From Gluconacetobacter sacchari (lineage in GTDB: Bacteria; Pseudomonadota; Alphaproteobacteria; Acetobacterales; Acetobacteraceae), in NCBI RefSeq assembly GCF_014174255.1, contig NZ_JABEQJ010000015.1, positions 1 through 64,000 on the forward strand: a stretch of 64,000 nucleotides of DNA, written 5' to 3'. The notes under the pieces are model-generated. The model was not told where the DNA came from. It ran no database searches and was given only the letters and a program-made list of their open reading frames with translations. Below are positions 7,790-12,890 of this stretch, piece after piece. Numbering within the stretch: position 1 is the stretch's first letter; each line of letters opens with the position of its first letter. The position numbers and the translations under genes were made by a program.

Positions 7790-8359
7790 TCATGCATGGG
7801 CGCGCCGTTCGGCATATTTCTGGACGTTGAGTTTTTGCTCGGTCGTCAGCCGGCGATAGAGTGCGACGAGGTCGTGCTCGTCGGCTGAAAGGGCTATCGT
7901 GATGCTCTGGTCCAACATGCCGCCGAGAAACAGTTCGCGGGGTACCTGGAAGACCGCCGCGAGCTTTGGCAGGAGTTTACAGGCATTGCCGGCGCGGCCC
8001 GTTTCCATGGCCGCGATCGCGGACCGGCTGACGCCGAGCGTATCGGCGAGTTCTGTCTGGTTCATGCCGTAGGCCTTGCGCAGGGCCGCGACCTTCTTGG
8101 CCAGTTCGATGCTGGGCGCTGCCACGCCCTGGGCATGGCCGCCGAGCGTGGCGCCGGTTTCGCGGATCCAGCGGCGGAACTGGGACTGGAAGACGACGTA
8201 CTCGTCCTGTTTCCCATTCGGGTCATCCTGGGAGGCGTCGCGTGGTACGAGCCGGTAGCAAAGCATGCGCGCGGGGAAATCGAGGATCAGCCGAGAGGGG
8301 GCGGCATTGTCTTCAGGCGTCCAGATCTGGCCGGGTTGGAGAAGAATGCGGGGTGCCAT
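7790..8359 (-). CDS. XRE-family transcriptional regulator with N-terminal extension
   Basis: A 189-residue DNA-binding protein. The lambda-repressor-like helix-turn-helix occupies about residues 85-140 (KKVAALRKAYGMNQTELADTL, then GVSRSAIAAMETGRAG). The first 80 residues (ILLQPGQIWTPEDNAAPSRL and following, with WIRETGATLGG at its end) form a separate beta-rich region of unknown function that could sense a ligand or dimerise. The C-terminal tail is helical. It lies on the same strand downstream of the Hint-domain protein and may control that locus; this is inference. The 16-bp hairpin at 8383-8418 lies between the two genes. Confidence 0.85.
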   Translation of the reverse strand: MAPRILLQPGQIWTPEDNAAPSRLILDFPARMLCYRLVPRDASQDDPNGKQDEYVVFQSQFRRWIRETGATLGGHAQGVAAPSIELAKKVAALRKAYGMNQTELADTLGVSRSAIAAMETGRAGNACKLLPKLAAVFQVPRELFLGGMLDQSITIALSADEHDLVALYRRLTTEQKLNVQKYAERRAHA

Positions 8360-8438: not shown

Positions 8439-10778
8439 TCAGGCCCTGGCGAGGCACTCTGTCCCGACCGTCATGTTTGCCAGGTAGGGACCGGCCGCCT
8501 TGATTTGCAGGGCAAGCAGGGCCACCCCGTTGGGGGGGCGCCTGCCCAGTGCCAGGACGGCGTTGCCGTCTGTCCACCGCGTGTCGGGCCATTCCAGAAT
8601 GTGCCATCCATCAAGGTGGGTGGGGTCGAGATGATGCGTGATCGCGTTCATCGTATTGTCTTCGAAAAGAGAGATCTCGCCGATCGCAATGCCGAGGACG
8701 CGGCGGTCGTCGACGAAGGGACCGATGACGTCACAGGGGCGACTGGCACGGGAGACGATGCGTACGCTTTCCACACCGGTCGGGATCAGGAAAATCGTAT
8801 AATTGCCGTTCGTGCGCGCCGGACGGATGATGGCGCCGCTATCGAGGGCGAGATGGAGATCCATATCGTCCGTGAGGGCGGGCGGAATGGTGTTGGCAGC
8901 GATGCCCATCGTGTTGCATCGGGAGTCGATCCGGCGGAAGAGAGGTTCGACGAACGCCCGGTCGACACGGAGCGGAGCGCCGGCGTCGTTCCATGACAAT
9001 TCGCGCGGGGAGACGAGGGAAACGACCTTGCCGTTCTGCCGGAAGGTATCGCGATTGCCGGTGTCGAGATAGGATTCGGTGAGCATGCCGTCGGCCGTGA
9101 CGACGGCATGCTGCTCCGTCTCGATATGATAATACATGTAGGACCGGGCAGACTTGTCGTAGAAGATCGACCCCCCGTTGACGAGCATGCGGGCGGGCAC
9201 GAAGCCGCCGTCGAAAAACAGGCAATGTTCCGCTGTGATCAGCATGTCCTTGTAGGGAACGCCGTCGGCGAACGCGTCCTTGCGGATGCGGACCGGCCAG
9301 CCGGCCGCGTCATCGGGCAGATGCGGGCGGACAGTGCAGCGCGCCTTGCCGACCCATATGACGGGACGTGTGATTTCCGCGTTTTGACGCCAGTCAAACG
9401 TGATGATTTCGTCGCCGATTCCGATGTCCTCGACAGCGACATCCCTCGATGGAGTGCGGATCATGCTGCCCGCGAGGAAACAGACAGTTTCGGATGCTCC
9501 GGCGTCGATCGTCAGGCTTCCGCCATTCTGCACTGTGGGATTGACGATCGTTGCTCCGGAATAGACATGGATTCCATTGCCGTTGGTGGGACCGGCGGGG
9601 CCACCCGGGCCACCCGGGCCACCCGGGCCACCCGGGCCGGCGGGGCCACCTGGACCGGCGGGACCACCCGGGCCGGGAGGCGTTGTGGCGGTGACATCGT
9701 TATAGATGACGTCGTTCACCGATGATGCGCCGGCGAAGTAGTATCCCTGCGTTCCGTCCAGATCGTTGCCGCTGGTGATGCCGCCGGACGATACGGAGAG
9801 CGTTGCGTTCGTGACGATGGAACTCTCCAGTGTTCCGCCGCCCATGACGGTGATGGTCGGCGCCGCGCCGCTGCCGGTCGCGAGCCCGGACACGACCGCG
9901 CCGCTTTCCACGATCAGCGTTGCGCCTTGCTGGCCGGGCGGAGCGGGTGGCCCTCCCGGCGGTCCTCCTGGCCCCCCTGGAGGGCCCGGAGGACCGGGCG
10001 GGCCAGGCGGCGCCGTGGCGGCGTCGGCCAGGACCACCGGACCGGTGACCAGGGTTCCGCCGCTGGTATAGACGGTCTGCCCCTGTTGCAGGATCGCCGA
10101 CCATGTGCCCGAAAGAACGGTCGGGTTTGCGGGCGTACGGAGTATTGCCGCGGAAGCGTTTTCGGATGCTCCGGCGTCGATCGTCAGGCTGCCGCCGTTC
10201 TGCACGGTGGGATTGACGATCGTCGCTCCGGAATAGACATGGATTCCATTGCCGTTGGTGGGACCGGCGGGGCCACCTGGACCGGCGGGACCACCCGGGC
10301 CGGGAGGCGTTGTGGCGGTGACATCGTTATAGATGACGTCGTTCACCGATGATGCGCCGGCGAAGTAGTATCCCTGCGTTCCGTCCAGATCGTTGCCGCT
10401 GGTGATGCCGCCGGACGATACGGAGAGCGTTGCGTTCGTGACGATGGAACTCTCCAGTGTTCCGCCGCCCATGACGGTGATGGTCGGTGCCGCGCCGCTG
10501 CCGGTCGTGAGCCCGGACACCACCGCGCCGCTTTCCACGATCAGCGTTGCGCCTTGCTGGCCGGGCGGAGCGGGTGGCCCTCCCGGCGGTCCTCCTGGCC
10601 CCCCCGGAGGGCCCGGCGGACCGGGCGGGCCAGGAGGCGCCGTGGCGGCGTCGGCCAGGACCACCGGACCGGTGACCAGAGTTCCGCCGCTGGTATAGAC
10701 GGTCTGCCCCTGTTGCAGGATCGCCGACCATGTGCCCGAAAGAACGGTCGGGTCGGCAGGCGTGCCGGATGTAGCCAT
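8439..10778 (-). CDS. AIDA-like/collagen-like repeat protein with C-terminal Hint domain
   Basis: A 779-residue modular protein preceded by an AGGAG ribosome site. There is no N-terminal signal peptide ([15 protein letters not shown]). Residues about 7-430 are two copies of a module of about 210 residues: AIDA-like strand-loop-strand segments ([51 protein letters not shown]) interrupted by collagen-like Gly-Pro-Pro tracts. A Hint_2-type domain begins at about residue 432 ([20 protein letters not shown]) with the N-terminal Cys expected for self-processing and a later [11 protein letters not shown] block. About 200 further C-terminal residues are unassigned. The adjacent heptosyltransferase probably glycosylates the AIDA-like part. 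Unlike classical autotransporters, it has no beta-barrel, so the export route is unknown. Confidence 0.85.
9492..10758 (-). repeat. two tandem ~600-bp direct repeats inside the Hint-domain gene
   Basis: Copy A spans about 10164-10758 and copy B about 9492-10131, offset by 627 bases at one end and 672 at the other. The copies are nearly identical over most of their length. The extra 45 bases of copy B lie in its collagen-like tract. The near identity points to a recent duplication or ongoing gene conversion. Confidence 0.9.
9601..9636. repeat. 9-bp tandem repeat x4 encoding Gly-Gly-Pro units
   Basis: The unit CCACCCGGG occurs four times without interruption and encodes collagen-like GGP triplets on the minus strand. 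It is present in copy B but not copy A of the large repeat, so the tract length has changed by whole triplets and keeps the frame. Confidence 0.9.
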
Positions 10779-10796
10779 ATTTGGATTTCTCCTGTT

Positions 10797-12077
10797 TCAG
10801 ACTGAATCGGAAAGTCGGGATTCGATCAGTTTGCCGATCGTGCGGATAACGTGTTCCGCTGAAATGAACCGCGAGCATTCGAACTGCCTCGGCGTTCCCG
10901 CGTGTCGCGGGCACCAGAGGAAGTCATTGTGGTCGAACTGATGCCGTGGATCATTCCAGCATGAGTTACACACGTGCCAATTGATGATACGCCACGGTGT
11001 GTAAAACTCGTTTGTCGGGTGGGTGAAACCCGATATCATAACGACATCGCACCCGGCGGCCCAGGCGAGCCACGCGAGGCCGGAACTGGTGCCGATGAAG
11101 AATTCTGCGTGCTTCAGCCACGATGCTCTTTCGGCCAAGGGCCGATTGCCGGTCTGGTCCTCGACGCCGTGGGGCAGGTGGTTCCAGACGATCCCGCCGC
11201 CATTCACGGGCTTCTGGTCTATGCATACGACCCGATAGCCGAGATCTTTTAGGTGCGTAACGATATCGTGCCAGCCTGTCGGATTGTTCCAATACTTGCA
11301 TTGCGCCGAACTTTGAACCGCGATACAGACATACGGTTCTTTAATAGGCCGTGCATCGCTTTCGATTGCGAGTCGGGGGCGTTCTTCCGCTGGATCGACG
11401 CCAAGAATGTAGGATGCCGTCTTGTGCAAGCCGACGAGACGGAAATCCGTCGGTTGCCGTTCACATCCGGTATCGGTGAAAAACAAGCCGATATTATAGG
11501 TTGCGTAAGCACGATCGAGTAACTGTCCTTCGATTGCCTGCGCGGTGCTGTAGAATGAGATTTCCGGGTATTCCGCCTTGAAAAGCGGGATGTAAGCAGG
11601 CGACAGGATACACGCGACTTGCGCCGCATGCGTACGGGCGAACTTCGCGACATAGGGCAGCCATGCAAGGACATCGCCCAACGTATTCACAGGGAGCTGT
11701 ATGACGACAATGTGCTCTTCGGACGTATCGTAGTCATGCCTGAAAATGATCCGTCCGTTTTCCTCGGCGGACAGGTCTGTAACTTCGATAGAAAAGCGAA
11801 CGAAATATTTCTTTGTGGATGTAACGGTGCCTCCTTCCACCGAAGCCTGATAGACAATCGTTCCCGTATCGATATCGCGCAAGGTCACGTTCCAGAGCCG
11901 ACCCGTGCGCACGGGCAGATGCACCCTCGCGCCATCATTGTAGTCGTAACGAATGCCTTCCGGGCCGGCCTGGGTGAGTTTGGATGGGGCGGGAATATAG
12001 ATGGATGTTGTCATCCGCTGCGAGGGAGAACAGAGCAAAGGGGGCTGAAATACAGAAGGATCACCGACCATGTTCAT
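10797..12077 (-). CDS. autotransporter strand-loop-strand O-heptosyltransferase (TibC/Aah-like)
   Basis: A 426-residue glycosyltransferase of the bacterial autotransporter heptosyltransferase family. The C-terminal half has a GT-B, ADP-heptose-type nucleotide-sugar domain (YVCIAVQSSAQCKYWNNP; FFIGTSSGLAWLAWAAGCDV). The diagnostic four-cysteine cluster is intact at C370, C373, C389 and C401 (CX2C-X15-C-X11-C, in CNSCWNDP, FLWCPRH and FECSRF); in TibC such cysteines bind iron. Known members modify serines of AIDA-type repeats in the cytoplasm before export. The gene ends 18 bases before the AIDA-like repeat protein on the same strand, its obvious substrate. A short upstream ORF overlaps its ATG by four bases. 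Confidence 0.9.
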   Translation of the reverse strand: MNMVGDPSVFQPPLLCSPSQRMTTSIYIPAPSKLTQAGPEGIRYDYNDGARVHLPVRTGRLWNVTLRDIDTGTIVYQASVEGGTVTSTKKYFVRFSIEVTDLSAEENGRIIFRHDYDTSEEHIVVIQLPVNTLGDVLAWLPYVAKFARTHAAQVACILSPAYIPLFKAEYPEISFYSTAQAIEGQLLDRAYATYNIGLFFTDTGCERQPTDFRLVGLHKTASYILGVDPAEERPRLAIESDARPIKEPYVCIAVQSSAQCKYWNNPTGWHDIVTHLKDLGYRVVCIDQKPVNGGGIVWNHLPHGVEDQTGNRPLAERASWLKHAEFFIGTSSGLAWLAWAAGCDVVMISGFTHPTNEFYTPWRIINWHVCNSCWNDPRHQFDHNDFLWCPRHAGTPRQFECSRFISAEHVIRTIGKLIESRLSDSV

Positions 12078-12274
12078 AGAGTGAAACCCTGACGACCAAA
12101 AAATCCTGATTTACGAAAATTTTCTTGTTGAAAATGTTTTCTTTCCAGTGACGATTTTTCTTGCGTTCTCGTCGTGGCGAATACATAGTCGTGGACGTAG
12201 GCGGGGTAAAAGCCGTGTTTGCGCAAATCAGGAATTGCGCATAATCCCGGGCGCGATAATGTGTCTGTCATCAT
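12074..12274 (-). CDS. possible small protein or glycosyltransferase-gene remnant, coupled to the heptosyltransferase
   Basis: A 66-codon ORF whose stop overlaps the heptosyltransferase start as ATGA, the arrangement of translational coupling. The product has a protein-like composition (LRKHGFYPAYVHDYVFATT) but I recognise no family and see no good ribosome site before the ATG. The stretch is less GC-rich than its surroundings. It could be a real small gene, the 3' end of a lost gene, or an upstream leader ORF. Its 5' end touches the start of the divergent recombinase gene, so both cannot have long private promoters. Confidence 0.3.
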   Translation of the reverse strand: MMTDTLSRPGLCAIPDLRKHGFYPAYVHDYVFATTRTQEKSSLERKHFQQENFRKSGFFGRQGFTL

Positions 12275-12890
12275 GAAATACGGTGGCGGACCTGTGGCGC
12301 GAAAGATCGGTTATGCGCGGGTGAGTACGGTCGGGCAGACCTTGGATACTCAGATCCAGGCCCTCGGGGCATTCGGTTGCGAAAGAACGTTCCAGGAAAA
12401 GGCGAGTGGGGCAGATGCGGCGCGCGTTCAGCTCCATCGATTGCTACGGAGCCTGCATCATGGCGACACCGTCGTCGTGACCCGGATCGACCGGCTGGCC
12501 CGCAGCACGTTCGACCTGTTCGCCATCGTCAAGGCGATTATCCAGAAAGATGCGCAGTTCTATTCCATTGCCGAACCGTGGGCCGATACCACGACGAGCA
12601 CGGGGCGATTGATGCTGGCGGTGCTGGGCGGCCTTGCGGATGTGGAGCGCGACCTGATTCGGACGCGGACGGCGGAAGGGCGGGCGCGGGCGGTCGGGCT
12701 GGGTGTCAGGATGGGGAGGCCGCCCGTGATATCGGATGCCCAGCGTCTGGAAATCGTCCGCCGGCGCCAGGCGGGTGAGACATTGAAAGTCCTCGCCGAG
12801 GCCTTCGGGGTTAGCGCGGCCACCGTATCGCGGATCACCACCGGAGCGGACAGTCATCGGAGCAGGAAGGCGCTGGCAAGCCTTGATTGA
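12273..12890 (+). CDS. serine recombinase (resolvase/invertase family)
   Basis: A small serine recombinase of 205 residues if started at the ATG 12273, or 198 from the GTG at 12294 (ARKIGYARVST, the more usual family N-terminus). The catalytic serine is in YARVSTVGQ, the conserved arginines in VVVTRIDRLARS, and the long E-helix region contains VERDLIRTRTAEGRARA. The C-terminal Hin-like helix-turn-helix (LKVLAEAFGVSAATVSRIT) is complete. It is divergent from the heptosyltransferase/Hint-protein pair and could act on that locus or be left over from a mobile element. No transposase is nearby. All key residues look intact. Confidence 0.9.
   Translation: MKYGGGPVARKIGYARVSTVGQTLDTQIQALGAFGCERTFQEKASGADAARVQLHRLLRSLHHGDTVVVTRIDRLARSTFDLFAIVKAIIQKDAQFYSIAEPWADTTTSTGRLMLAVLGGLADVERDLIRTRTAEGRARAVGLGVRMGRPPVISDAQRLEIVRRRQAGETLKVLAEAFGVSAATVSRITTGADSHRSRKALASLD

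Follow-up and report, generated by a model that had tools for sequence, protein, structure and literature searches.

We describe a two-gene system in the first 64,000 nucleotides of contig NZ_JABEQJ010000015.1 of Gluconacetobacter sacchari (hereafter the window), where a gene for an O-heptosyltransferase is followed on the minus strand, after 18 bases, by a gene for a repeat protein that ends in a Hint domain, an arrangement and spacing already recorded in a preliminary description of this DNA. In acetic-acid bacteria and their relatives, the heptosyltransferase often adjoins a repeat protein that has no C-terminal barrel and ends in a Hint domain, which resembles in build the part of animal Hedgehog that cuts itself, and the pair points to an undescribed route to a surface protein coated with sugar. 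In the explanation that we favor, a TibC-type enzyme would place heptose from adenosine diphosphate (ADP)-heptose on serine and threonine residues of the passenger in the cytoplasm, the C-terminal Hint domain would use Cys433 to cut itself and the tail behind it off the passenger, and the product would leave the cell by type I secretion and function extracellularly, in adhesion or as a matrix protein. Judged from sequence, heptose on this passenger is probable, self-cleavage by the Hint domain is about as probable, and type I export of the product is an evenly balanced proposition; these steps are not independent of one another. The complete chain, giving a heptosylated, Hint-processed and type I-exported surface or extracellular protein from two genes, is held tentatively, as a prospect somewhat short of even.

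The enzyme (Table 1) belongs with near certainty to the TibC/Aah family of O-heptosyltransferases (bacterial autotransporter heptosyltransferases, BAHT). It matches TIGR04414 (hepto_Aah_TibC) at 600.5 bits against a cut-off of 200, PF21129 (TibC_1st) also matches, and chains of Escherichia coli TibC in the PDB are found at E 3e-123. Enzymes of this family form dodecamers and transfer heptose from ADP-heptose to the passenger. The CX2C-X15-C-X11-C motif noted in the preliminary description is confirmed, with all four cysteines present; these and Asp135 are invariant across 20 aligned enzymes, the window's enzyme among them. Sections of the TibC study (PMC4358343) report that the four cysteines bind iron, that cysteine mutants fail to glycosylate and that the D110A variant is catalytically inactive. 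The window's enzyme is predicted to be active. Profile searches of the whole genome (4,828,999 bases in 114 contigs, with the pair on contig C15) found one TibC/Aah-type enzyme and two Hint_2 genes.

The partner protein was said to lack both a barrel and a signal peptide, and this is borne out. No barrel family was found in it, and the barrel models PF03797 and TIGR01414 have zero matches in the window's genome, while both score in controls from E. coli and Caulobacter. No in-frame start lies upstream of its open reading frame, and no signal peptide was seen, the sequence being repeat-like from the start and without a charged n-region, as judged by eye and with a crude hydropathy score that failed to separate two controls. 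A diverged barrel can escape detection, because the partners at two loci from Paraburkholderia and Trinickia (L186 and L188) are autotransporter-like at both ends by eye and Pfam gave no barrel for them (E 0.01); despite such possible misses, the C-terminus of the window's protein is occupied by the Hint domain and the tail. The passenger consists of two near-identical cassettes. The collagen-like tracts of the preliminary description exist as Gly-X-Y tracts of 5, 5, 5 and 10 triplets, which coincide with 9- and 18-base tandem repeats; they are short, and the long uninterrupted Gly-X-Y sequence that would make them collagen-like is absent from the partner, its longest run being 10 triplets.

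That the C-terminal region has a Hint fold is near certain. PF13403 (Hint_2) matches amino acids 432-573 at 112.4 bits against a cut-off of 28.4, and the domain begins with a cysteine (Cys1), as first described, and carries the block-B Thr/Ser-x-x-His motif. The cysteine and three histidines of the domain are invariant across 20 diverged copies, and with these catalytic residues present the domain is predicted to be active. No column at its end corresponds to the C-terminal His-Asn (block G) of inteins and A-type bacterial intein-like (BIL) domains (alignment A2, inspected by eye); B-type BIL domains have no C-terminal motif, as here. Because the Hint domain lacks this splicing end, the self-ligation earlier offered as a possibility is unsupported. 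A difference from BIL domains of both types is that these, according to PMC7765530, are located in proteins that are not conserved, within hypervariable regions. The tail that follows the Hint domain is conserved, 14 others sharing 25-53% identity with that of the window's protein; it is present in 67 of the 83 Hint frames, a set in which some loci occur twice, and the same comparison found no tail without a Hint domain. Repeat passenger, Hint domain and glycosyltransferase are fused in a single protein at four loci (L050:4753-8208, L149:6669-11456, L125:834-8753 and L211:991-13911). Since the glycosyltransferase follows the Hint domain there, the order suggests cleavage before export, at least in the fused variants. 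The second Hint protein of the window's genome (L036:7878-9779, contig C33) has a different N-terminal part, and its gene has neighbors that we take to resemble helicase-type and thioredoxin genes; in genome G277 (L216), a Hint gene follows similar neighbors on the other strand. In PMC11999647, a missense change in a Hint domain-containing protein is one of eight listed for a cellulose-overproducing Gluconacetobacter hansenii mutant, a correlation only.

The pairing was examined at 140 loci, namely the window, 59 picked by hand for genus coverage from the listed matches in the family, and the best 80 of 484 matches in named genomes; some contigs are present under two names. These gave 155 enzyme frames and, once identical ends were removed, 140 distinct enzymes, whose reading frames and neighbor classes were assigned by script. 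A Hint-terminated repeat protein adjoins 35 of the 140 enzymes, downstream in 29 and upstream in 6, counts in which over-long script starts caused one pair at L052 to be missed and another there to be called upstream; at L074 a single Hint gene serves two enzymes. A repeat protein without a Hint domain in frame adjoins a further 15, of which 10 are cut by the fetched stretch. Four partners were extended: L211 proved to end in a Hint domain, L210 and L212 did not, and L213 remained incomplete. The enzyme itself is above cut-off in 117 of 397 genomes of the family, and hosts of the pair include Acidomonas methanolica, Acetobacter pasteurianus LMG 1262, A. orleanensis, A. farinalis and Roseomonas sp. 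18066. Within the window's genus the enzyme occurs in 4 of 14 sampled genomes and a Hint partner adjoins it in all four. Two outcomes named at the outset as telling against the proposal, a barrel in the partner and the absence of conserved pairing in relatives, were looked for and not observed. On a FastTree phylogeny of 138 enzymes, 22 changes of the Hint label are required, compared with a mean of 32 after shuffling, and because at least nine of the 22 are forced by well-supported branches, the pair has repeatedly arisen or been lost. Over 34 pairs, the distances between enzymes correlate with those between Hint domains (Mantel r 0.33, a value reached in 0 of 2000 permutations). A contig assigned to a Terriglobia metagenome-assembled genome (L170) carries a 1914-amino-acid AIDA-type protein and a heptosyltransferase with the same gene spacing as a contig of the window's family (L053, genome G065), and both contigs have a length of 33766; the Terriglobia contig is probably a mislabelled or contaminated bin.

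Type I exit is proposed because neither a signal peptide nor a barrel is seen. Another route out of the cell had been postulated and a search for type I secretion genes elsewhere in the genome suggested; two clusters are present, TolC-ABC-HlyD (L108) and ABC-HlyD (L109), where ABC denotes an ATP-binding cassette transporter. In Caulobacter sp. S45 (L182:1-10301), genes for an AIDA-repeat protein, a heptosyltransferase, an ABC transporter, HlyD and TolC lie consecutively on one strand; this transporter has a C39-like domain, and the start of the repeat protein is lost at the contig end. Relatives of ABC and HlyD also lie within approximately 7 kb of the enzyme at L147, L165 and L066. TIGR01843 (HlyD) is above cut-off in all 22 enzyme-bearing genomes examined, from 13 genera, which fails to refute type I export and does no more. 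Near the L108 cluster, a 1284-amino-acid protein with a glycoside hydrolase family 15 (GH15) domain and no evident signal peptide (L108:14003-17857) is possibly a substrate of that cluster. As a whole, the earlier reading keeps its recurrent barrel-less pairing and its alternative export route, and loses self-ligation.

Several observations weigh against the three-step explanation. The strand-loop-strand repeats described in the passenger are weak and degenerate: TIGR04415 scores 17.2 bits in a protein search and, in a genome search, 21.6 bits at 9495-9584 and 10167-10256, once per cassette, below its cut-off of 30, and no Pfam AIDA family matches the 779-amino-acid partner. By the script's classes, 90 of the 140 enzymes have neither a Hint nor a repeat neighbor (4 of them with <1.5 kb of downstream sequence). 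A Hint_2 gene occurs in all 14 sampled genomes of the genus, 10 of which have no enzyme, which implies that Hint has work without heptose; a second Hint_2 gene occurs in the four enzyme-bearing genomes and also in G277, which is enzyme-less. As to export, the type I genes lie on contigs C27 and C4, unlinked to the pair; no ABC transporter of the window's genome reaches the cut-off of TIGR01842 (PrtD), the best scoring 309.9 of 510.15 bits; and the window's protein has no repeats-in-toxin (RTX) motif. Type I secretion may also be universal in the family, the 22 genomes examined for HlyD all being enzyme-bearing ones.

The 90 solitary enzymes and the 10 enzyme-less genomes with Hint genes would also fit a Hint domain that is non-catalytic, or just a C-terminal cap or export signal, with the pairing reflecting shared surface-protein islands. 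We consider this unlikely: the invariance of the cysteine and three histidines in 20 diverged copies is hard to explain without catalysis.

No more probable, and perhaps less so, is a transfer like that of Hedgehog, in which the Hint domain would hand the heptosylated passenger to an alcohol or amine lipid acceptor (a polyketide lipid, a hopanoid or another lipid) and so anchor the C-terminus of the passenger covalently in the outer membrane, the tail being the counterpart of the Hedgehog sterol-recognition region. The Hint domain, like the C-terminal (Hog) domain of Hedgehog, has no splicing end, and the tail keeps company with it in 67 of 83 frames and was found nowhere else. The differences are an identity of 16% to 1AT0, a tail without a clear Pfam family, the lack of a known acceptor and a repeat protein as passenger; no sequence match or confident fold match was obtained that would identify the tail as a sterol-recognition region.

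A polyketide synthase cluster would supply the acceptor in some acetic-acid bacteria. In several genera, genes for an AMP-ligase, a polyketide synthase and a second AMP-ligase form a row that ends in one or two heptosyltransferases, and the single synthase scanned (L214) is fully reducing (ketosynthase, acyltransferase, dehydratase, enoyl reductase, ketoreductase and acyl carrier protein, KS-AT-DH-ER-KR-ACP), as would suit the transfer. In fifteen genomes the row is visible together with the sequence that leads up to its first ligase. In nine of them, from four genera (G029, G040, G061, G136, G173, G218, G246, G299 and G323), the gene immediately ahead of that ligase, in the same orientation, encodes a Hint protein; the other six, from two genera (G032, G118, G158, G170, G201 and G211), have no Hint there and between 1 and 5 Hint_2 matches in other places. 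In G029 and G116, Hint genes are interspersed among those for ligase and synthase, the enzyme being out of view in G116, which again would suit the transfer; the flank is cut in G276, and G286 has a variant of the row with no synthase in view. Loci at which Hint proteins open or interleave the row are L214, L221, L222, L224, L225, L227, L230, L231, L239 and L241. Because a Hint protein directly precedes the row in 9 of 15 genomes, lipid attachment of the Hedgehog kind is allowed, not shown. Among 14 pair-bearing genomes searched at 1e-30, six have no synthase match, three have partial matches only and one has a match split over contigs; the remaining four, of the window's genus, have a synthase 34-39% identical, unlinked to the pair in the window's genome. 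The synthase is dispensable for the pair, since six of these genomes have no match. The row resembles, and may be the same as, a type 1 polyketide cluster of Bombella apis, which PMC8262860 and PMC9147383 present as an antifungal candidate and in which one of the two papers lists domains for dehydrogenase, enoyl reductase and ketoreductase, as well as a pair of putative adenylation domains. The main texts of both papers lack the word heptosyltransferase, and Hint is absent from PMC9147383, the one searched for it.

MafB toxins are linked with Hint domains, and the genome's other Hint protein scores 19.5 bits with PT-HINT (pretoxin Hint), below the cut-off of 27.7; a role of the tail as an effector that is set free, on the model of polymorphic toxins with Hint ahead of the toxic end, is nevertheless very improbable, given that the tail is conserved rather than variable and that, in gene maps read by eye, no small immunity-like gene consistently follows it.

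Table 1. Features of the heptosyltransferase-Hint pair and adjoining genes in the window
Feature	Position	Strand	Remarks
O-heptosyltransferase, TibC/Aah (BAHT) family, 426 aa	10797..12077	-	TIGR04414, PF21129, PDB TibC
Iron-finger motif CX2C-X15-C-X11-C, Cys370/373/389/401	10875..10970	-	Intact: C370-x2-C373-x15-C389-x11-C401
Asp135 codon	11673..11675	-	Aligned with position mutated (D110A) in TibC 4rb4 chain
Hint-terminated repeat protein, 779 aa	8439..10778	-	Lacks a barrel and, by eye, a signal peptide
Passenger cassette 1, aa 1-205	10164..10778	-	Shares 92% identity with cassette 2 (216 columns)
Passenger cassette 2, aa 214-430	9489..10139	-	Near-copy of cassette 1
9-base tandem array, Gly-Pro-Gly / Gly-Pro-Ala triplets	9598..9674	-	Shorter counterpart in cassette 1
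Hint_2 domain, aa 433-573, first residue Cys433	9060..9482	-	PF13403
Conserved tail after Hint, aa 589-779 (~190 aa)	8442..9014	-	No clear Pfam family
Ribosome-binding-like AGGAGA	10788..10793	-	Precedes ATG of Hint protein gene
Helix-turn-helix (XRE-like) gene	7790..8359	-	PF01381; downstream of pair
Resolvase gene	12219-12890	opposite to enzyme	Adjoins GC dip

The window's copy appears to be of mixed origin. Guanine-plus-cytosine (GC) content drops to 0.53-0.56 over 11000-12499, covering the enzyme and its upstream region, against 0.61-0.71 around it, and this dip beside a resolvase gene makes it likely that region 11000-12890 was acquired. The tree places the enzyme with the truncated one of Acidomonas methanolica (L126; 64% identity over 373 columns, support 95), L087 and L113 ranking first by bit score; it does not place it with the three other enzymes of its genus, to which its identity is 51-55%. 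The passenger is likewise nearest to L126 (38% over 203), whereas among 57 Hint frames compared the second Hint protein of the genome comes closest to the Hint domain and tail (65% over 339). In this one case, enzyme and passenger may have been acquired and joined to a Hint end of local type. The XRE-like gene, whose relatives come after a Hint gene at L219 and L220, is possibly a regulator of the pair.

Each part of the system is of a known kind, and the combination has no published description in the literature searched; neither a description of the pair nor a paper with both 'heptosyltransferase' and 'hint domain' was found in a search outside which most subscription journals lay. TibC-type heptosyltransferases are known from autotransporters. 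The pair shares with TibC-TibA and Aah-AIDA-I of E. coli the enzyme family, the four iron-finger cysteines, the catalytic aspartate and the position of the enzyme beside a repeat-protein gene, but its partner has no signal peptide or barrel, ends in Hint and tail, and has degenerate repeats. With type I secreted adhesins it has in common a repetitive passenger without a signal peptide and, in some relatives, ABC-HlyD-TolC genes near the enzyme, and differs from them in the missing RTX motif and the unlinked secretion genes. If our explanation of heptosylation, Hint cleavage and type I export is true, TibC-type heptosyltransferases would serve a second class of substrate, exported without a barrel, and the Hint_2 family would gain a concrete job. 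Were a lipid instead the recipient of the protein in the Hint step, bacteria would have an equivalent of Hedgehog lipidation, and a polyketide cluster considered antifungal would take on a different meaning.
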